Shown here: positions 40,071 through 54,302 of the stretch, piece by piece
Layout of the letters: each line of letters starts with the position of its first letter
Position numbering within the stretch: the stretch's first letter is position 1
Source of the DNA: Bryobacteraceae bacterium
GTDB taxonomy: Bacteria; Acidobacteriota; Terriglobia; Bryobacterales; Bryobacteraceae
Assembly: GCA_026129905.1 (NCBI GenBank)
Contig: JAHCHE010000002.1
Location: 310,001 to 374,000, forward strand
Length of the DNA stretch: 64,000 bases
Direction: 5' to 3'
Program-made: the position numbers and the translations under genes
The notes under the pieces: model-generated
Database searches by the model: none
The model's input: only the letters and a program-made list of their open reading frames with translations
What the model was told of the DNA's origin: nothing

Positions 40071-40427
40071 ATGCCGGAAGGCTACGTCCCGTTTTTCATC
40101 TTCGTCGCGGCGGCCGTCGGGTTCGTCCTGACGATGCTGCTGGTGGCCAAGATCCTGCGCCCGTCCTCTCCGTTCGCGACAAAACTGGAGGCGTACGAGT
40201 GCGGCATCCGGGCAGCCACCACCGCGCGCGGGCGATACGCCGTCCGGTACTACATCATCGCGATCCTGTTCGTGATTTTCGACGTGGAGACGGTATTTCT
40301 TTTCCCATGGGCGGTACGCTACAAAGTTCTCGGCTGGTTTGGCGTCGTGGAAGTCGCCGTTTTTCTCGCCATTCTGATCGTCGGCTACATCTGGGCTTAC
40401 AAGAAGGGCGCCCTCGAGTGGGTGTGA
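40071..40427 (+). CDS. nuoA: NADH-quinone oxidoreductase subunit A
   Basis: Small membrane subunit of complex I, 118 residues with three transmembrane helices. The conserved middle reads K-L-E-A-Y-E-C-G-I, then R-Y-Y-I-I-A-I-L-F-V-I-F-D-V-E-T-V-F-L-F-P-W-A, which is diagnostic. The gene stands alone, with no nuoB-N in the window; the next gene is an unrelated secreted protein overlapping its stop by four bases (GTGA). Either the complex I genes are split in this genome, or this is a second, isolated nuoA copy. Confidence 0.95.
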   Translation: MPEGYVPFFIFVAAAVGFVLTMLLVAKILRPSSPFATKLEAYECGIRAATTARGRYAVRYYIIAILFVIFDVETVFLFPWAVRYKVLGWFGVVEVAVFLAILIVGYIWAYKKGALEWV

Positions 40428-44814: not shown

Positions 44815-45393
44815 ATGTCGTTTCCGTTCATCAGAGAATCCGCCCGCTCTGAGCAGGCGCTCCCCCTCCGTCTGGGAGGTGGACCCTCGAGCGCGCCCGA
44901 TGAGGAGTCCGGGGCCGCCCCGGCGCGGGCCAAACAAGCCCCGGCGGCTTCGCTGCCCGAGCAGGCCGGCCGCCGCAACGTCCGCCTTCTGATCGTCGAA
45001 GACAATCCCACCGATATCGTGCTGATCCGGCAGGCGATTCAGCTTCACGACGTGCCGGTGGAGATCACCCTCGCCGAAGATGGCGAAGCCGCCCTCCGGC
45101 TCATCGACGAGGCGGAGCGGAGTCCGGAAGCGGCTTGCCCGGAAGTCATTCTCCTGGATCTCAACTTGCCTCGAAGAGACGGCCACGAGATTCTCCGGCG
45201 CGCCCGCGCCTCCGAACGCTGCAAACGCATCCCGATCGTCGTCTTCACCTCGTCGGATTCGCAGCGGGACCGCGCGCTCACCGCCTCCCTTGGCGCCACC
45301 CGCTATTTCCGCAAGCCTGTCGATTACCTCCAGTTCCTTGAAATCGGCTCCATCCTCCGCGACGTCATTGAAGAGTACCGGCGAACCAACTGA
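44815..45393 (+). CDS. Rcp1-like single-domain response regulator with N-terminal extension
   Basis: A receiver domain occupies residues 56-185: acidic pair V-E-D-N at the end of strand 1, phospho-acceptor aspartate in I-L-L-D-L-N-L-P near 116, threonine in V-V-F-T-S-S, and lysine in F-R-K-P. The R-R-D-G-H-E loop is typical of the Rcp1-like (phytochrome-partner) branch. The first 55 residues are a disordered, alanine-proline-rich extension; the start could therefore be later. It ends seven bases before the acyl-CoA carboxylase gene, so it is on the same transcript. No histidine kinase is adjacent. Confidence 0.9.
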   Translation: MSFPFIRESARSEQALPLRLGGGPSSAPDEESGAAPARAKQAPAASLPEQAGRRNVRLLIVEDNPTDIVLIRQAIQLHDVPVEITLAEDGEAALRLIDEAERSPEAACPEVILLDLNLPRRDGHEILRRARASERCKRIPIVVFTSSDSQRDRALTASLGATRYFRKPVDYLQFLEIGSILRDVIEEYRRTN

Positions 45394-45400
45394 ACTGCGC

Positions 45401-46972
45401 ATGCGCGAACGGGTCGAGCGGCTCCGCGCGATGGAGCGGCAGGTACGCGCCGGCGGCGGCCCGGACAAGATTGAGAAGCAGCACAAGGCCGGCAAGCTGA
45501 CCGCCCGCGAGCGCATCCACCGCCTCCTCGATCCTGGCTCGCCTTTCTTCGAGGCCGGCCTGCTGCTGGCTTTCGATAAGTACGAAGGCAAAGCGCCGGC
45601 CGCCGGCGTGGTAACCGGCGTCGGGAAAGTTGAAGGCCGGCCCGCCGTTGTGGTCGCCAACGACGCCACCGTCAAGGCCGGCGCATGGTGGCCGGAGACC
45701 ATTGCCAAGATCCTCCGCGCCCAGGAAATCGCCATGCGGAACCGCATCCCCATCGTCTACCTGGTGGATTCCGCCGGCGTCAATCTTCCGCTTCAGGACG
45801 GCATCTTCCCCGGCCAGTACGGCGCGGGCCGGATCTTCTACTACAACTCGCTCATGCGGCGGAAGCTTCTCGTGCCGCAAATCGCCGCCGTCATGGGACC
45901 CTGCATCGCCGGCGGGGCCTACCTGCCCGCCCTCAGCGACGTCATCGTGATGGTGGAAGGCGTCAGCTTCATGGGCCTCGGCGGTCCCAACCTGGTGAAG
46001 GGCGCCACCGGCGAGGTCACCGACCAGGAAACCCTCGGCGGCGCCGCCCTCCACACTCGGGTGAGCGGCGTCGCCCATTACATGGCCCCGGACGACGAAG
46101 CTTGCCTGGAATTGATCCGCCGCCAGTTTCATCACCTGCCGGCGCCGGTTCAGCCTCCCTCGGGACCTCCTCCCGCACGCCCGCCCGAGGATCTCTACGA
46201 CATTCTCCCGGACGACCACCGCCTCCCCTACGACATGCAAGCCGTCCTCGCCGCTCTGTTCGACGCGGGCGAGTTGATCGAGTTTCAGCCCGAGCACGCT
46301 CCCGAGATGCTCTGCGCCAACGCGCGCCTCGAGGGCCGCCCCGTAGCCGTCATCGCCAATCGCCGCGGCTTCGTCAAGACCGCGTCCGGCCCCCGCGTCG
46401 GCGGCATCGTCTACACGGAATCCGCGCGCAAGGTCTCCTACTTCGTCGAGACGGCCGAACGGCGTGGCCTGCCCCTGCTCTATTTCCAGGACGTCTCGGG
46501 CTTCATGGTCGGCACGGAAGCCGAAAGCGAAGGCATCATCCGCGCCGGCGCCGAGATGGTGGAATCCATGGCCTGCGCAGCCGTCCCGAAGATCGTCCTC
46601 ACCGTCAATCACGCCAGCGGCGCCGGCTACTACGCCATGGCAGGACAGGGCTTCGACCCCCACTTCACCTTGTCCTGGCCCACCGCCCGCATCGGCGTCA
46701 TGGAAGGCGACTCGGCAGTCCAGGCCGTCTACGGCCCCGAGATACAAAAGTACCGCGCCGCCCGACAGCCGCTGCCGGAGGAACTGAAGGCTTCCATCGA
46801 GCGGACCCGCGCCGACTACGAGCGCTGGCTCGATTTTTCTCACGCCGCCGCCCGCGGGCACGTCGACGCCGTCATCGATCCCGTCGAGACGCGGCCGACG
46901 CTCTCGTTCCTGCTCGAAGTGGCGGCTGCGAATCCGCGCCCCGCGCACCTGGCGCTCGAAACCCTCTCATGA
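45401..46972 (+). CDS. Acyl-CoA carboxylase carboxyltransferase (beta) subunit
   Basis: Biotin-dependent carboxyltransferase of the methylcrotonyl-, geranyl- or propionyl-CoA carboxylase type, 523 residues. Both halves of the crotonase-like fold are visible: G-K-L-T-A-R-E-R-I near 32, then I-A-A-V-M-G-P-C-I-A-G-G-A-Y in the first half. The second half has Y-F-Q-D-V-S-G-F-M-V-G near 360, followed by H-A-S-G-A-G-Y-Y-A-M, as in MCC/GCC beta. The ATG at 45401 begins the family sequence (R-E-R-V-E-R-L-R-A-M-E). No biotin carboxylase (alpha) gene is in the window. With AtuA downstream, the geranyl- or methylcrotonyl-CoA type is favoured. Confidence 0.92.
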   Translation: MRERVERLRAMERQVRAGGGPDKIEKQHKAGKLTARERIHRLLDPGSPFFEAGLLLAFDKYEGKAPAAGVVTGVGKVEGRPAVVVANDATVKAGAWWPETIAKILRAQEIAMRNRIPIVYLVDSAGVNLPLQDGIFPGQYGAGRIFYYNSLMRRKLLVPQIAAVMGPCIAGGAYLPALSDVIVMVEGVSFMGLGGPNLVKGATGEVTDQETLGGAALHTRVSGVAHYMAPDDEACLELIRRQFHHLPAPVQPPSGPPPARPPEDLYDILPDDHRLPYDMQAVLAALFDAGELIEFQPEHAPEMLCANARLEGRPVAVIANRRGFVKTASGPRVGGIVYTESARKVSYFVETAERRGLPLLYFQDVSGFMVGTEAESEGIIRAGAEMVESMACAAVPKIVLTVNHASGAGYYAMAGQGFDPHFTLSWPTARIGVMEGDSAVQAVYGPEIQKYRAARQPLPEELKASIERTRADYERWLDFSHAAARGHVDAVIDPVETRPTLSFLLEVAAANPRPAHLALETLS

Positions 46973-48303
46973 TCCGCATTGCCAACGGGCAGGGCTTCTG
47001 GGGCGACTGGCTCGAAGCGCCGGTCCGGCTGGTCGAGCAGGGGCCGCTCGACTATCTCACGCTGGATTACCTGGCCGAGGTCACCATGGCCATCCTCCAG
47101 AAGCAGCGCCAGCGCGATCCGTCGCTCGGCTATGCCCGAGACTTCCCGCCGCTCATTGGCAGGCTCGCGGCGAGCCTCCGCGAACGCGGCGTGGCCGTGC
47201 TCGCCAACGCCGGCGGCCTCAACCCGGTGGCCTGCGCCCGCGAGGTCCTCAGACTCGCTCCCGGCCTCAAAGTCGCCGTCGTGCTCGGCGACGACCTCAC
47301 CCCGCGCGTTGGCGAACTGCTCGACAAGGGCCACCCCATGACCAACATGGATACCGGCGAGCCGATCGAGGCTATCCGCGACCGCATTCTCAGCGTCAAC
47401 GCCTATCTCGGCGCCTTCCCGCTCGCCGAGGCGCTGGCCACCGGGGCGGACGTCGTGATCTCGGGCCGCTGCGCCGACGCGGCGCTGGTCTGCGCCCCCG
47501 CTATTCACCGATTCGGCTGGCGTCCCGGCGACTGGGACCGGCTCGCCGCCGGCATGGTGGCCGGTCACATCGTCGAATGCGGCGCCCAGGTCACCGGCGG
47601 CAATACGCAGGCCGGTTGGGAAGGCCTGGAGAATCTCGATGAAATCGGCTACCCCATCGTCGAAATGGACCCGGACGGCTCGTTTCAGATCACCAAGCAC
47701 CCACGCACCGGCGGCCTGGTGAACGCGCACACGGTGAAGGAGCAGTTGCTCTACGAAATCGGCGACCCCTCCGCGTACCACACGCCCGACTGCATCGCCG
47801 ATTTCACCAGCCTCCGCGTGCGCGACGCCGGCCCGGACCGCGTGCGCGTCACCGGCGCCAGCGGCGCTCCCGCCACCGAATTCCTCAAGCTCTCCATCAA
47901 CTACTCGGCCGGCTGGAAAGCCATTGGGACGCTCGTCTACACGTGGCCGCAAGCCGTCGAGAAAGCGCGCGCCGCCGATCGCATCGTCCGGAGGCGCCTG
48001 GAAACGCTCGGCCTCCGCTTCGACGAAATCTATACGGAGTTCCTGGGTCTGGATGCCTGCCATGGCCGCGCGGCGCCCCGCGTCGCGGACCCGCCGGAGG
48101 TGCAGTTGCGCATCGGCGTGCGGGGTCCGGACCGAGCCGCCGTCGACCGGTTCACCCGCGAGCTGATCCCGCTTGTCCTCTCCGGCCCGCCCGGCGCCAC
48201 AGGTTACGGCGAAGGCCGCCCCGCCGTCCGCGAAGTGGTCGCCTACTGGCCCGCCCTGCTGCCGCGGACCGAAGTGCAGGCGCGCATCGAGGTGGTGGAA
48301 TGA
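46969..48303 (+). CDS. atuA: AtuA/DUF1446 family acyclic terpene utilisation protein
   Basis: A 444-residue DUF1446 (AtuA-type) protein. The N terminus I-A-N-G-Q-G-F-W-G-D carries the family's conserved start; later come V-L-A-N-A-G-G-L-N-P near 80, V-V-I-S-G-R-C-A-D-A-A near 165, G-H-I-V-E-C-G-A-Q-V-T-G-G near 205, and T-K-H-P-R-T-G-G near 245. AtuA is essential in acyclic terpene (citronellol/geraniol) degradation clusters, but its reaction is not established. ATG overlaps the carboxylase stop (ATGA), and the next gene does the same, so the unit is tightly coupled. Confidence 0.9.
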   Translation: MIRIANGQGFWGDWLEAPVRLVEQGPLDYLTLDYLAEVTMAILQKQRQRDPSLGYARDFPPLIGRLAASLRERGVAVLANAGGLNPVACAREVLRLAPGLKVAVVLGDDLTPRVGELLDKGHPMTNMDTGEPIEAIRDRILSVNAYLGAFPLAEALATGADVVISGRCADAALVCAPAIHRFGWRPGDWDRLAAGMVAGHIVECGAQVTGGNTQAGWEGLENLDEIGYPIVEMDPDGSFQITKHPRTGGLVNAHTVKEQLLYEIGDPSAYHTPDCIADFTSLRVRDAGPDRVRVTGASGAPATEFLKLSINYSAGWKAIGTLVYTWPQAVEKARAADRIVRRRLETLGLRFDEIYTEFLGLDACHGRAAPRVADPPEVQLRIGVRGPDRAAVDRFTRELIPLVLSGPPGATGYGEGRPAVREVVAYWPALLPRTEVQARIEVVE

Positions 48304-48632
48304 AGGTCCCCCTCTCCCGCCTCGCCCATACGCGCTCCGGAGACAAGGGCGACGCCGTCAATATCGGCGTCATCGCCTGGCGCGACGAACACTACGCGCT
48401 CCTGCTTCGCGAACTTACCCCGGAGCGCATCCTCGACTTCTTCCGCGACCGCGTCCGAGGCCCCGTCGAGCGCTACGAACTGCCGAACCTCGCCGCGCTG
48501 AATTTCCTCATCCACGGCGCTCTCGGGGGCGGCGGAACCGTCTCGCTCCGTACGGACGCCCAGGGTAAAACCTTCGGCGCCGCGCTGTTGGCGCTCGACA
48601 TTGAAGTGGCGCCGGACGACCCGCCCCTATAA
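48300..48632 (+). CDS. AtuA-like ferredoxin-fold small protein
   Basis: A 110-residue partner that is often fused to the C terminus of AtuA elsewhere. The family start L-A-H-T-R-S-G-D-K-G-D-A-V-N-I-G is unmistakable, followed by an alpha/beta fold ending in N-F-L-I-H-G-A-L-G-G-G. ATG 48300 overlaps the atuA stop. It is probably a required subunit for AtuA. The stop TAA overlaps the TATAAT that precedes the next gene. Confidence 0.9.
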   Translation: MKVPLSRLAHTRSGDKGDAVNIGVIAWRDEHYALLLRELTPERILDFFRDRVRGPVERYELPNLAALNFLIHGALGGGGTVSLRTDAQGKTFGAALLALDIEVAPDDPPL

Positions 48633-48633
48633 T
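48628..48633 (+). promoter_or_regulatory. -10 box (TATAAT) overlapping the preceding stop codon
   Basis: TATAAT shares its TAA with the end of the AtuA-like gene and sits 29 bases before ATG 48663, which has a GGGGGAG Shine-Dalgarno. It could give the dehydrogenase an extra, independent promoter. Confidence 0.45.
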
Positions 48634-48662
48634 AAGAGCAGCGCTACGCGCCCGAGGGGGAG

Positions 48663-49838
48663 ATGATCGTCACCGAAACGACGCCGGCCGTTCACCCGCC
48701 GTATCCTTATTTCACCGAAGAACACGAACTGATCCGCCGCACCGTCAAGCAATTCTGCCTCGACGAGATCGCGCCCCGCGCCCAGGAATGGGAAGAGGCC
48801 CGCGCCTACCCGAAGGAGCTTTTCAAACGCGCCGCCGAACTCGGCCTCTTCGGCATTCGCATCGACCCGGAATGGGGCGGCGTCGGCATGGACTGGTGGG
48901 CCGTCGCCGCCATGTACGACGCGCTGCGCTACACCGATTTTCCCAGCCTCAACATTGGCTTCATGGTGCAGTCCGACCTGACCATCCCCCTGATCGGCGA
49001 CCTCGGCACGGACGAACAGAAACACGAGTTCATGAAACCCGCCATCGCCGGCGACCGCATCGCCGCCCTCGCCATCAGCGAGCCCGGCTGCGGCTCCGAC
49101 GTCGCGGCGATGCGCACCACCGCCCGCGAAGACGGCGGCGACCTGGTGATTACCGGGCAGAAGCTTTGGATCACCAACGGCGTCATCGCGGACTTTCTGC
49201 TGCTCGCCGTCCGCACCTCGGAGCACCGGCACCGGGGCATCTCGCTCGTTTTGCTTCCCACCGATGTGAAAGGTTTCTCCGTTGGCAAACGGATCGCCAA
49301 GGTGGGGCACGTCGCTTCCGACACCGCCCACTTGTACTTCGATGAGTGTCGCATCCCCGCCAGCTACGTGCTCGGCCGCCGCAACCACGGCTTTTACTAC
49401 ATCATGGAGCACTTCCAGGGCGAGCGACTCGCTACCTCGCTGCTGGTGTTGTCGTTCATGGACCGGTCGCTCGAACTCGCCATCCATTACGGCAAGGAGC
49501 GCCACGCCTTTGGCCATCCCGTGATCAAAAACCAGGTCTGGCGGCACCGCTTCGCCGAACACCGCGCGAGCGTCGAAGCCGCCCGCTGGCTGATTTACCG
49601 CGCGCTCGATCTGATGAACCGGAAGAAAAGCGCCAATCGCGAAATCTCCATGGCGAAGCTCTTCGCCACCGATCTGTCCCAGCGCGTCACCTACGACTGC
49701 ATGCAGATGTTCGGCGGCTTCGGCTACACCACCGAATACCCCATCGGCCGCATCTGGCGCGACATGCGCCTCTACACCATCGGCGCCGGAACGTCGGAAA
49801 TCATGAAGGAAATCCTCGCCAAGCAGGACGGCTTGTAG
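48663..49838 (+). CDS. Acyl-CoA dehydrogenase
   Basis: FAD-dependent dehydrogenase of 391 residues. Family marks are [10 protein letters not shown] near 140, W-I-T-N-G near 174, and the C-terminal [13 protein letters not shown] near 355 with [14 protein letters not shown] after it. This end resembles isovaleryl- and citronellyl-CoA dehydrogenases more than fatty-acid ones. A catalytic acidic residue is likely within the A-G-T-S-E-I stretch. Its place after atuA suggests a substrate of the branched acyl-CoA pathway (inference). Confidence 0.93.
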
Positions 49839-50876: not shown

Positions 50877-53800
50877 TTATCGGATAGCGATCGTCACTCC
50901 GTCCTGACTCTGGGCGCTGCCGACGCTAACCCGCACAGGAACAGCGTCGCCCGTCGGAGCGTTGTCGGGAATCAGGAGGTTGAACTGCATCACGCCCGTC
51001 ACCAAGCCTGGAGTCGAGCCGGCGTACGTGACCGTGGCCGGCGCGTCGCCAACGGTGGCGGAGAGCGGCAACTGAAGATGGCGTGGCTCGGGAACGATGA
51101 CGCCGTCCTCGCACGCCGGAGAGGTGGCCCCGCCCGACGTGCCGAACGCCGTCACAACGCTCCCCCTGGGGGCGGGATTCGTGGGGCTGTTTACGGAATT
51201 GTCGGGCCAGTTGAGGATGACGCCCTGGCCGCGGCCGTCGCCACTGACAGTGAATATTCCGGGGTTTGCGGATGCGACGGCCAAGACAACCGGCCCTGAG
51301 GGCTGTCCTTTATATTCCACCCGCACTTCCGTGAGTTGGCGCTGGGCAACCGCGGCTGGGACTACCGCGTTGATTTGGGTCGACGAGACAAACAGCAGCG
51401 GCGCCGCGTGGCCATCGAACAAGACGCGGGTGTCCGCAAGTTGGTTCGTCACCGATTTGCCGTCGGGAGTGAGTTGGAGGGAGACCGGATCCACGGGGCC
51501 GAGGTTCGCTCCGAAAAACGATATGAGCTGGCACGGCGCAGCGCCGCCGCTGAGGAAACTCGCGCTGTTCACCGTGTCGCCGGAGGTGAATTTGGGTTGG
51601 GGAAGAATCACAACGCCCGGGTCCGCCGAGACTTGCATCGGGGAACGCGCGATGACGTTCCGGTTCTGATCGAGATACAGGAAGCGGTAGAAAGAAATGG
51701 CGCCCGCTTCCAGGCTGTAGCCGACTTCGCACGACGAGCCGGCCGCGCATGCTACCTGCGCGGTGTAAGACGGTCCGATGAGCGTATCGGTGGAACCGTC
51801 GTACCGGTTGGAGTATTCGACAATCACCGATACGACCCCCTGGGCGTCAGGCGTGGCGCGCAGGGTTACCTGGCGCGTGCCCGATCTCGCGGCCTTTGTC
51901 GTGAACGAGCCTTCGGACGCGTCGCCGCCGCAGTGCAGCCGGTACCAATACGTCGTGCTTGCAGAAAGCGGTACGTTTCCGCCAATGCGAATGGTTCTCG
52001 TTCGCCGCTGACTATCGACGATGCTGTCGGACTGGCGGTCGCTCCCGGGCCTGGAGAACAGGCTGGGGTTGAGATCCGGGATCGACGTCGAGAGATCGCG
52101 CTGGTCGCTCACTTCGACGACGCAGGGGATTCGCTGGATAGGCTCGGTGAGCCGGTACTTGAACAGCGCCTGGCGATCGGTGGTTTCAATCACCAGGTCC
52201 CGGATTTGGGGGAGTTGGTTGAAGTCGGCGCCGATGTCCGCGCCGTCGGTTCCGCCGCGTTTGGCGAAATTGCCTTCACGCACGCTGTAGTCGCCGCCGG
52301 AGTAATTGGCAAACAGCCTGCCGTACCGGGGATCGTCAAAATCCCAGTCGATTCCGCAACCGGTATTGGTGGAACACAAGTTATAAGTCTCTCCCGTGCT
52401 GTATCGGCGCAGATCGACGCCCGCGATGATGTTCTTGTTAAACTGCGTCACCGGACAAGGCTTGCCGCCGCACAGGAGGTTGTCGAGGGAAGAGGAACCT
52501 TCGGTGTGAGACGCGCCTCGGATACCCCCTTGATTGCCTCGGGGGAAAATGTTGTTAAGGAGTTCGGCGTCGCCTGCGTGCAGATCTCCGCGGCCTTCCA
52601 GTTGAATGGCCGTGACGGGCGCATTGCGGCCGAAGATCGTATTGTTGTGAATTCTGACCCGGGGCGGCAACGTTCCGAGAAAGAGGTAATTCCTGGTGTT
52701 GACGCAGCCGCCGCCCACGGCGCTCCACTTCCGGCAATCGAGGTCCTCCATCAGATTATTACGAACAAGGATGTCGCCGATTTGCCCAATGACGCCATTG
52801 GTCCACTGCGCGATGGTCAGGCCGACAGGTCCCCCGCGGATGACGTTGTTCGTGAACGTGATCTGGTGATCCCACGCGGACCGGCAGCCTCGTTGGCCGT
52901 AAGTATAGGGAACTCCAGTTTGCGTGCCCGCATCGGTTGTCAACGTAAGCCGGAGGTGGTCGCCCGGCTCGAAAGAGGCGATCCTATAGTCCACTCCGTT
53001 GATCTTGATGTTGAATGGATCGACGTTATTCCAGGTCAGAGGTTGATGCAGGTTGGGCAGCGGTCTGCCGTCTCGCGCGCGCACGGATGCGCCAGTTACG
53101 TCGACCACGCCCGAATACTCCGGCACGCACTGGCAGTTTGCCGTCCCCTCGACGCAGTTGGAGAGCTTGAACACAACGTTGTTATCCTGCCCGTCGATCC
53201 AATGACGGGCAAAAACATTGTGCTGTATCTGCATGCGGCGAGCGCTTTTGATTTCGAGATTATTCTTGGCCACCAGGTGGGCGTTGGAACTGGACACGCA
53301 GGCCCATGTGATGCCGTTATCCACCACGGTTCCGCCGACGCTTTCGGGCCAGGCCGGTTCCATGTTGCCGGTAATTCCAGAGTTCCGCGCTACGTACGTG
53401 TAACCGGTGTTTCTCGACGGACGGATCACGCGTCCTCGGAAAACGACCATTCCTCCCGACCAGGGGCTGAAGCGCATCCTCTCTTCCATCCGCGGAAAGT
53501 AATTGAAGCGGATCATGCCCTCGATCGCGCCATCGAAGTAGGTTCCGATCCCGCCAAGCAGGAGATTCTCCGCGGCGCCGCCCAGATAGCAATTTTCAAT
53601 GATGAGAGGACCGACGCCCTGGACGGCGTTGATTGCCTGCGTGTCCGCGTTTAACTCCCGTATTCCGTCAATGTAGGAATTCCTGATTGTCACGTGGCGT
53701 CCATGGACGGAGATCATGCGCCGAACGATGTAACTATAGTCCTGCTCGAAAAGACACTGGTCGACGACGATGTTATCCGGCTGCTGGAGAGGAGATCGCA

Positions 53801-54302
53801 GCGTCGTTCCGAAATAGGAACCGCTGTTGCCGATTAACAGCGGACCTTCTCCGGTGACGGCAACGATCGTCGAAAAACGCAGACCCCAGAGCCGAATATA
53901 CGTCGCGGGCGTATCGTTGCCGGCGATGCCAAGCGCCCACGGTCCCGTTGCCGCAATGGTGGGCATTAACGGGGCGTAGGCGGGCGTAACGCGAGCATCC
54001 GGGGCGGGGAGTCTCGCGTCCTGGGTAGTCGTAATGGTCAGGTAGCCGCTCGAACCCGGGCGCGCGGTGATGACCAGCGATCGGTTGCTCCGGAAGAGAC
54101 GGCCGGCTTCCAGTTTGATGGTATCGCCCCGGTGCGCATCGTCAAGGGCGGTCTGAACCTCGCCGACTTCCGCCTGCGTGCAGGTGCTTGCCGCGCACCG
54201 GATGGTGTAAGTGCATGGCCGGCTGGAACAGTTTGAAGGTTCTTTCTGCGTGGCGCCGAACACAACAACGACGGAGAACAACCCGGCGGTTATCCACTTC
54301 AC
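50877..54302 (-). CDS. Giant secreted right-handed beta-helix protein with TIGR03437 domain
   Basis: 1141 residues starting at GTG 54302 with a strong GGAGGAT Shine-Dalgarno. A leader (L-F-S-V-V-V-V-F-G-A) is followed by a parallel beta-helix of about residues 45-690, recognised by short repeated strands (N-I-V-V-D-Q-C-L-F-E, V-T-I-R-N-S-Y-I-D, L-I-I-E-N-C-Y-L, I-T-F-T-N-N-V-I-R, V-R-I-H-N-N-T-I-F-G) typical of pectate-lyase-like proteins. A fibronectin-like stretch follows (about 700-860). The last 235 residues are the TIGR03437 domain (V-N-S-A-S-F-L-S-G-G, F-F-G-A-N-L-G-P, Q-I-N-A-V-V-P). A polysaccharide lyase or surface adhesin role is plausible; I could not pick out catalytic residues. 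Confidence 0.88.
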   Translation of the reverse strand: MKWITAGLFSVVVVFGATQKEPSNCSSRPCTYTIRCAASTCTQAEVGEVQTALDDAHRGDTIKLEAGRLFRSNRSLVITARPGSSGYLTITTTQDARLPAPDARVTPAYAPLMPTIAATGPWALGIAGNDTPATYIRLWGLRFSTIVAVTGEGPLLIGNSGSYFGTTLRSPLQQPDNIVVDQCLFEQDYSYIVRRMISVHGRHVTIRNSYIDGIRELNADTQAINAVQGVGPLIIENCYLGGAAENLLLGGIGTYFDGAIEGMIRFNYFPRMEERMRFSPWSGGMVVFRGRVIRPSRNTGYTYVARNSGITGNMEPAWPESVGGTVVDNGITWACVSSSNAHLVAKNNLEIKSARRMQIQHNVFARHWIDGQDNNVVFKLSNCVEGTANCQCVPEYSGVVDVTGASVRARDGRPLPNLHQPLTWNNVDPFNIKINGVDYRIASFEPGDHLRLTLTTDAGTQTGVPYTYGQRGCRSAWDHQITFTNNVIRGGPVGLTIAQWTNGVIGQIGDILVRNNLMEDLDCRKWSAVGGGCVNTRNYLFLGTLPPRVRIHNNTIFGRNAPVTAIQLEGRGDLHAGDAELLNNIFPRGNQGGIRGASHTEGSSSLDNLLCGGKPCPVTQFNKNIIAGVDLRRYSTGETYNLCSTNTGCGIDWDFDDPRYGRLFANYSGGDYSVREGNFAKRGGTDGADIGADFNQLPQIRDLVIETTDRQALFKYRLTEPIQRIPCVVEVSDQRDLSTSIPDLNPSLFSRPGSDRQSDSIVDSQRRTRTIRIGGNVPLSASTTYWYRLHCGGDASEGSFTTKAARSGTRQVTLRATPDAQGVVSVIVEYSNRYDGSTDTLIGPSYTAQVACAAGSSCEVGYSLEAGAISFYRFLYLDQNRNVIARSPMQVSADPGVVILPQPKFTSGDTVNSASFLSGGAAPCQLISFFGANLGPVDPVSLQLTPDGKSVTNQLADTRVLFDGHAAPLLFVSSTQINAVVPAAVAQRQLTEVRVEYKGQPSGPVVLAVASANPGIFTVSGDGRGQGVILNWPDNSVNSPTNPAPRGSVVTAFGTSGGATSPACEDGVIVPEPRHLQLPLSATVGDAPATVTYAGSTPGLVTGVMQFNLLIPDNAPTGDAVPVRVSVGSAQSQDGVTIAIR

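Follow-up and report, generated by a model that had tools for sequence, protein, structure and literature searches.

A carboxyltransferase-AtuA gene unit of a Bryobacteraceae bacterium in which AtuA and a small partner protein appear to take the place of HMG-CoA lyase

We describe a stretch of five genes in a window of 64,000 nucleotides (the whole stretch of DNA that was analysed) from a genome akin to those of soil Acidobacteriota, and read it, with a probability of about 0.6, as a unit for the catabolism of 3-methyl-branched acyl-CoAs, in the likeliest case those of leucine or isovalerate and possibly those of longer 3-methyl acids, in which AtuA and a partner subunit replace HMG-CoA lyase and a response regulator is a chance neighbour. 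We infer a route in which the acyl-CoA dehydrogenase (ACAD) would form a 3-methyl-2-enoyl-CoA and the carboxyltransferase (CT) would carboxylate its gamma carbon, with a biotin carboxylase and carrier acting in trans, in this genome probably AccC and AccB of acetyl-CoA carboxylase. Water would be added by a hydratase whose gene lies on another contig (C34). AtuA and the small protein would then cleave the product, of the 3-hydroxy-3-methylglutaryl-CoA type, probably to acetate and a 3-oxoacyl-CoA.

Concerning the layout of the locus, coordinates and domains confirm the gene order given by an earlier reading made from the sequence only, head to tail on the plus strand at 44815-49838. A response regulator consisting of a receiver only (44815-45393; PF00072, E 7.5e-17, residues 59-171, its sole Pfam domain) is followed after 7 bases by the CT beta subunit (45401-46972; PF01039, E 3.5e-137, placed by alignment and tree). 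CT overlaps by ATGA with the gene of AtuA, predicted to be the large subunit of a C-C lyase resembling citramalate lyase (46969-48303; PF07287, E 1.1e-147). A second ATGA overlap leads to the AtuA ferredoxin-like small protein (FER), the predicted partner subunit of AtuA (48300-48632; PF23544, AtuA_ferredoxin, E 9.1e-30), and after 30 bases ACAD follows (48663-49838; PF00441, PF02770 and PF02771). Gene maps of relatives were made with a codon-model caller, those of L115, L118 and other loci in the range L037-L130 resting on longest open frames and homology; the caller predicted no gene at all in L161 or L266, and in L191 its predictions did not include CT; the counts over 78 loci exclude L161 and L191. 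AtuA starts at most 150 bp downstream of CT in 53 of the 80 named CT loci, so the pairing exceeds chance, and was not seen in the available CT flank in 26 of the 80; these counts are not independent, as many of the mapped loci are second copies of named ones (e.g. L262/L136, L265/L145, L278/L146) and the 80 named ones may share genera.

The reaction of AtuA has, to our knowledge, been assigned only tentatively so far. The protein of the window belongs to its family (PF07287, 492.8 bits against a curated cut-off of 22.8), and 134 of 396 sampled Acidobacteriota genomes encode AtuA-like proteins. In other AtuA proteins the ferredoxin-like domain is fused at the C-terminal end; here this domain (PF23544) forms a gene of its own, the "AtuA-like protein" of the sequence-only reading. 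The sequence profile of AtuA reached 9erq (E 4.3e-9) and its predicted model matched 9evf_A (Foldseek E 8.5e-23; VIA-align Z 29.2, 411 aligned residues, rmsd 3.8). Structures ranked after 9evf_A were rejected as relatives, since they cover only about residues 313-425, a common domain. For the small protein, a search of the PDB by sequence profile yielded nothing below E 0.3, only weak chance matches; it was the fold search with its predicted model that gave 9evf_B (Foldseek E 1.7e-5, TM 0.66/0.69). Both subunits are thus predicted to fold as the two chains, A and B, of a single citramalate lyase entry, 9EVF. That enzyme (PDB 9ERQ/9EVF; chain A named as AtuA family, cmlA) has chains of 456 and 105 residues, as compared to 444 and 110 here, but identity is only 17% and 21%, and the present pair is set among acyl-CoA carboxylase and dehydrogenase genes, where a CoA-thioester substrate would be expected. 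PMC12016498 names "AtuA-like lyase" genes in the context of naphthalene degradation, and PMC4682846 describes, next to mesaconase genes, a DUF1446 gene whose function was unknown. For Acidobacteria, no paper was found that connects AtuA with citramalate or HMG-CoA lyase, a weak negative with most subscription journals outside the search.

The distribution of AtuA among genomes points to its role. In 80 genomes picked from 200 of the family, mostly the more complete ones, AtuA is present in 57 of 63 genomes with CT versus 1 of 17 without (Fisher p 4e-11); in the single exception (G466), a CT of MCC type adjoins a biotin-carboxylase protein of 662 aa. HMG-CoA lyase above the cut-off of 246 bits, searched for in 45 of the 63 CT genomes and in those lacking CT, was found in 4 of 6 CT genomes without AtuA, in 0 of 39 with AtuA and in 0 of 17 without CT. 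The two remaining CT genomes without AtuA have neither enzyme (G571) or a lyase match of 163.6 bits, under the cut-off (G586). Genes for 3-oxoacid CoA-transferase A and B directly follow two of the four lyase genes, which fits acetoacetate and hence a C5 substrate. Counted as fewest changes on the CT tree, AtuA changed three times and the lyase twice, the swap being seen about twice; independent pairs agree and none opposes, too few for significance. Outside the family, four genomes (G374, G097, G361, G368) have both AtuA and a lyase above the cut-off and a fifth (G257) has AtuA with a lyase match of 218.5 bits, so AtuA does not always exclude HMG-CoA lyase. A classical lyase above the cut-off was found in 0 of 7 Gemmatimonadota genomes tested. 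From this pattern and the predicted folds, AtuA and its small partner appear to substitute for the classical HMG-CoA lyase.

CT gives its highest scores against sequences of MCC type (MCC beta 407.7 bits, AccD1 407.5, GCC 295.5) and forms a clade of its own beside the MCC and GCC beta subunits, grouping with the MCC and GCC rows in a tree rooted on three PccB-like rows. According to the accessible passage of PMC4673880, MCC beta carries Phe191 with a preceding three-residue insertion and GCC carries Gly, and swapping F and G changes substrate preference. We read position 191 as human MCC beta numbering (chain 8j4z_J, counted by hand), a numbering that is inferred; Phe191 then falls in the DHFG motif right after the insertion, where GCC-type rows have a deletion and Gly, and we accept it because the position matches that passage, directly after the insertion. 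CT keeps the insertion of MCC; in place of Phe it has Ala, as do all 108 rows of orthologues (at least 58% identity), so that it also differs from GCC/AtuC beta subunits, which have Gly and lack the insertion. Counted from the predicted start codon, the first residue of CT aligns with index 42 of 3u9r_B, and the protein is without the N-terminal stretch of MCC and GCC, including the helical extension that MCC beta has and PCC beta does not. Compared to the Liu system of leucine and isovalerate breakdown (MCC and HMG-CoA lyase), the unit would follow the same logic of carboxylation, hydration and cleavage, but the AtuA pair apparently replaces the lyase, the gate residue is Ala and a biotin carboxylase is encoded elsewhere or was not found.

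The gate alanine, smaller than the Phe of MCC, could also speak for a unit nearer to the true terpene (Atu) pathway, in which CT would carboxylate longer 3-methyl-2-enoyl-CoAs of the geranyl-CoA type and AtuA would cleave a longer homologue. The unit shares AtuA, a carboxyltransferase and ACAD with the Pseudomonas Atu (acyclic terpene utilisation) genes; ACAD scores best with long-chain dehydrogenases (270 bits, above 227.5 for isovaleryl-CoA ones), and fuller Atu-like operons in the relatives G257 and G483 include ACADs 63% like that of the window, along with AtuA, an AMP ligase, a biotin carboxylase and a CT of GCC type. Against this, CT lies outside the GCC-type clade and retains the MCC insertion, the CoA-transferase genes beside two lyases fit acetoacetate, and AtuA is split into two genes. 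Nor does the unit hold both carboxylase subunits and a hydratase as an Atu cluster does; no hydratase, ligase, alcohol dehydrogenase or TetR regulator is among the four neighbouring proteins scanned for domains. We therefore regard a terpene route as rather unlikely. That CT is an alpha-carboxylase of the propionyl-CoA type feeding methylmalonyl-CoA mutase, with AtuA in another role, is improbable. In its favour, CT is immediately preceded by a gene of the cluster of the mutase B12-binding subunit (one member domain-scanned), often with an overlap, in the 22 named loci of Gemmatimonadota type; 10 loci carry the cluster of the mutase large subunit and 14 carry MeaB; and 9tps, which ranks third among the PDB matches of CT (394.7 bits), bears the name propionyl-CoA carboxylase beta. 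Against it, CT groups with MCC and GCC and apart from the PccB-like paralogues of G423 and G463, two genomes that also carry this CT. A propionate route moreover has no place for a hydratase or for the HMG-CoA lyase pattern.

There is no biotin carboxylase in the unit, as the sequence-only reading had pointed out, and its suggestion to look elsewhere was followed. The genome (98.2% complete, 71 contigs) holds two proteins with a biotin-carboxylase C domain, one AccC-like (447 aa) and one pyruvate-carboxylase-like (1145 aa), and three PF01039 matches, namely this CT and two partial ones in frames of 282 and 286 aa, taken as accA and accD. A dedicated biotin carboxylase or carrier for CT was not found in this assembly; AccC and AccB are present. 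The absence holds for this assembly and for the available locus flanks of relatives, but not for the relatives' genomes, since 58 of 63 CT relatives tested have a second biotin carboxylase (BC2) elsewhere. G440, whose CT pairs with that of the window in a 37-row tree, is likewise without BC2. This could mean that CT works without biotin carboxylase, e.g. as a decarboxylase or transcarboxylase, and the best NCBIfam match of CT is indeed TIGR01117 (mmdA); its 354 bits, however, lie far under the cut-off of 999, a score on which alone a sodium-pump decarboxylase was rejected, and mmdA also comes first for a GCC-type CT that adjoins a biotin carboxylase. With AccC and AccB at hand here and BC2 so common in relatives, such a mode of action is highly improbable. 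If supply in trans is true, it would show that a carboxyltransferase can be retained in a genome in which a dedicated biotin carboxylase was not found.

A hydratase lies at most 4 kb downstream of CT in 37 of the 78 named loci having a CT gene model, and homologues of ACAD (69-70%) follow the hydratase in two of the 80 named loci (L146 and L184). In this genome the nearest hydratase (54% identical) is on contig C34, flanked by relatives of c13 and c12, genes that occur in the orders c13-c4-CT-hydratase-two genes-c12 (L176) and CT-one gene-hydratase-c12 (L143). As the usual downstream hydratase sits elsewhere, the CT-AtuA-FER block has probably moved, the evidence for which comes from these two loci, and the regulator would have become its neighbour by this move.

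The response regulator looks incidental, a chance neighbour and not a conserved part of the unit. Its adjacency to CT recurs in 0 of the 80 named CT loci (five with less than 600 bases upstream), and its closest matches among those listed from 200 family genomes reach at most 51% identity, none of them adjoining CT; membership in the unit was rejected for its absence beside CT in relatives. In L183 and L178, receiver-domain matches lie upstream of CT but not next to it, at distances of about 2 and 5 kb. Control of the unit by the regulator in this lineage is very unlikely: the two genes share a strand with a 7-base gap, and no terminator- or promoter-like site was seen between them (the scan as a whole gave 0 promoter-like sites of sigma-70 type, the type covered, versus 0.4 expected, and 5 terminator-like sites versus 3.5 expected), but a lone receiver domain and its absence beside CT elsewhere argue against it. 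Thus the proposed variant leucine or terpene acyl-CoA pathway gains support from the CT tree, the predicted AtuA fold and the AtuA/lyase pattern, while the signalling input of its own that had been attached to it lacks support.

We tentatively suggest, as a possibility short of even odds, that AtuA and its partner form a widespread CoA-retaining HMG-CoA:acetate lyase with a fold unlike that of the classical lyase, which it would replace in the breakdown of leucine throughout the Bryobacterales and perhaps also in Gemmatimonadota; acetate and acetoacetyl-CoA would be formed, making an acetoacetate CoA-transferase unnecessary, and CT would be a third gamma-carboxylase lineage able to use the biotin subunits of acetyl-CoA carboxylase. 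The lyase swap and the two-chain structure match make the function of AtuA open to a simple assay. If true, this would explain how leucine breakdown is completed without the textbook enzyme in these bacteria.

The five-gene layout described in the sequence-only reading proved real, with the genes at the positions described. A receiver-only response regulator gene (44815-45393) ends 7 bases before the start of a carboxyltransferase beta subunit gene (CT, 45401-46972), which is followed by AtuA (46969-48303), a small AtuA ferredoxin-like protein (48300-48632) and an acyl-CoA dehydrogenase (48663-49838). ATGA overlaps join CT, AtuA and the small protein, and 30 bases separate the small protein from the dehydrogenase. 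Contig C12 of a draft genome (G000), 8.57 Mb in size and 98.2% complete, contains the window. Elsewhere in the window, a large protein (50877-54302) carries at its C-terminal end the Solibacter C-terminal domain TIGR03437, and a solitary gene at 40071-40427 resembles, by eye, NADH-quinone oxidoreductase subunit A.

In family genomes, CT homologues of about 70-78% identity are common; a CT-type match at E 1e-10 is present in 175 of 200 genomes, a count which takes in weaker paralogues. A scan of named genomes retained 80 of 103 CT loci. At 53 of these the start of AtuA is no more than 150 bp from CT, at one AtuA is 5.4 kb away, and at 26 it was not seen in the covered flank (L152 and L166 having less than 600 bases downstream). 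Of the 78 loci with a modelled CT, 37 have an enoyl-CoA hydratase/isomerase (PF00378, assigned to the cluster from a scan of one member) no more than 4 kb downstream. Directly upstream of CT in 22 Gemmatimonadota-type loci (L192-L210, L212-L214) is a gene of the methylmalonyl-CoA mutase B12-binding subunit cluster; the mutase large-subunit cluster is found in 10 loci and the MeaB cluster in 14. The adjoining B12-binding subunit gene points to a setting in branched-chain amino-acid metabolism or else in propionate metabolism. By eye, the small gene next to the unit, upstream of CT in L166, L169 and L171 and of AtuA in L323, is NIPSNAP-like. The titles Bordetella parapertussis, Acidimicrobiia and Gammaproteobacteria misfit the CT relationships of L160, L164, L207, L208, L210 and L212, bins which may be mislabelled or mixed.

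The proposal that the unit has its own signalling input is not supported, the regulator adjoining CT in none of the 80 named loci (L157, L171, L177, L192 and L207 have less than 600 bases upstream). It consists of a receiver domain with about 56 additional N-terminal residues, and a domain scan revealed nothing besides the receiver. The best matches listed from 200 family genomes reach at most 51% identity, and none of those listed adjoins CT. The closest relative of the operon hydratase in this genome (54% identity) lies on contig C34, flanked by relatives of the genes labelled c13 and c12. Gene order is c13, c4, CT, hydratase, two other genes, c12 in L176 and CT, one gene, hydratase, c12 in L143. 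From these two loci, the simplest inference is that CT, AtuA and the small protein left a c13/c12-type site and landed by the regulator.

CT scores 407.7 bits against Pseudomonas 3-methylcrotonyl-CoA carboxylase (MCC) beta, 407.5 against AccD1, 394.7 against 9tps (named propionyl-CoA carboxylase beta) and 295.5 against geranyl-CoA carboxylase (GCC) beta. In a 37-row tree, rooted on three rows named PccB-like from a motif and with one long row, L091, attaching near the base with a warning, it falls into a separate clade of 12 rows (SH-aLRT 99) beside a clade of 21 MCC-type and GCC-type rows. At the substrate gate, the rule published in PMC4673880 gives Phe for MCC and Gly for GCC. Ala occupies the position taken as Phe191 in all 108 CT rows that reach 58% identity, of which some share a genome and three were read off a printed motif. 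CT is therefore not a clear-cut example of either MCC or GCC. Compared with Pseudomonas MCC beta, the C domain of the window CT has 13 inserted residues around the stretch FVKTASGPRVG.

The distribution of HMG-CoA lyase was compared with that of AtuA in 80 genomes chosen from the 200, 63 with CT (about 70% identity or more) and 17 without. AtuA was present in 57 of the 63 as against 1 of the 17. The lyase model NF004283, applied to 45 of the 63 CT genomes and to all 17 without CT, gave no match above cut-off in the 39 CT genomes with AtuA or in those 17, and scored above it in four of the six CT genomes without AtuA (G443, G558, G574, G579); of the other two, G586 gave 163.6 bits and G571 nothing beyond the weak scores that related enzymes give. 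3-Oxoacid CoA-transferase A and B are encoded after the lyase gene in G443 and G574, and in G579 the lyase gene is preceded by ligase-like and MaoC-like genes (named by eye). Fisher tests gave p of 4e-11 and 1e-4, both ignoring kinship; the CT tree requires at least three changes of AtuA state and at least two of lyase state, and its independent pairs are concordant with none opposed, their number being too small for a sign test to reach significance. Outside the family, AtuA and the lyase occur together in G374, G097, G361 and G368, AtuA occurs with a lyase match below cut-off in G257 (218.5 bits) and without the lyase in G228, G124 and G074; none of seven Gemmatimonadota-type genomes exceeded the lyase cut-off.

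AtuA and the small protein resemble citramalate lyase. A profile of 21 AtuA proteins matched its subunit A (E 4.3e-9), and the predicted AtuA model (mean pLDDT 81.7) matched chain A of structure 9evf with a Foldseek E of 8.5e-23 (next best 1.9e-3) and Z 29.2 over 411 residues (next best 10.1). The small-protein model (88.4) matched chain B (E 1.7e-5; next best 0.039), so that two chains of one enzyme correspond to two separate genes here, as judged from predicted models. Acetate release is common to both systems, citramalate lyase yielding acetate and pyruvate (PMC4682846) and the proposed AtuA reaction also releasing acetate (PMC4847356). 9evf is an enzyme-ADP-pyruvate complex, and, speculatively, its ADP may mark a CoA site.

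No biotin carboxylase match was found in the covered flanks of the 80 named loci. Across the genome itself, the matches detected were AccB-AccC and a 1145-aa pyruvate-carboxylase-like protein; further PF00364 matches are frames of 421-478 aa, taken as lipoyl proteins. Another biotin carboxylase (BC2; the G187 copy has 494 aa) is present in relatives, adjoined by a carrier-type gene in 9 of 10 loci examined (one pair domain-scanned). At 60% identity or more BC2 was detected in 58 of the 63 CT genomes, twice as a partial match, and not in G000, G440, G492, G537 and G548. Since 8 of the 17 CT-less genomes also have it, BC2 probably serves other carboxyltransferases too. The CT of G440 pairs with the window CT in the 37-row tree, their placement being unresolved in a 45-genome tree, and its order CT-hydratase-dehydrogenase shares the dehydrogenase with the window unit; the absence of BC2 may thus be common to the two genomes rather than due to a gap in the assembly.

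The unit may act on longer substrates, given the Ala at the CT gate, the long-chain type of the window dehydrogenase and related GCC-type operons resembling the acyclic terpene utilisation pathway in G483 (L344:7870-15258) and G257 (L115:4907-13352). Both operons encode a GCC-type CT, biotin carboxylase, AMP ligase, AtuA and a 63% homologue of the window dehydrogenase, and that of G257 encodes a hydratase and the small protein as well; the G483 operon is a second locus, separate from that genome's orthologue of the window CT. Leucine or isovalerate is the favoured substrate, because of the CoA-transferase genes and the MCC-like CT scores. Of the variant breakdown pathway with its own signalling that had been proposed, the metabolic part is sharpened to a specific claim, namely that AtuA and its partner act in place of HMG-CoA lyase, after a gamma-carboxyltransferase of a third kind.
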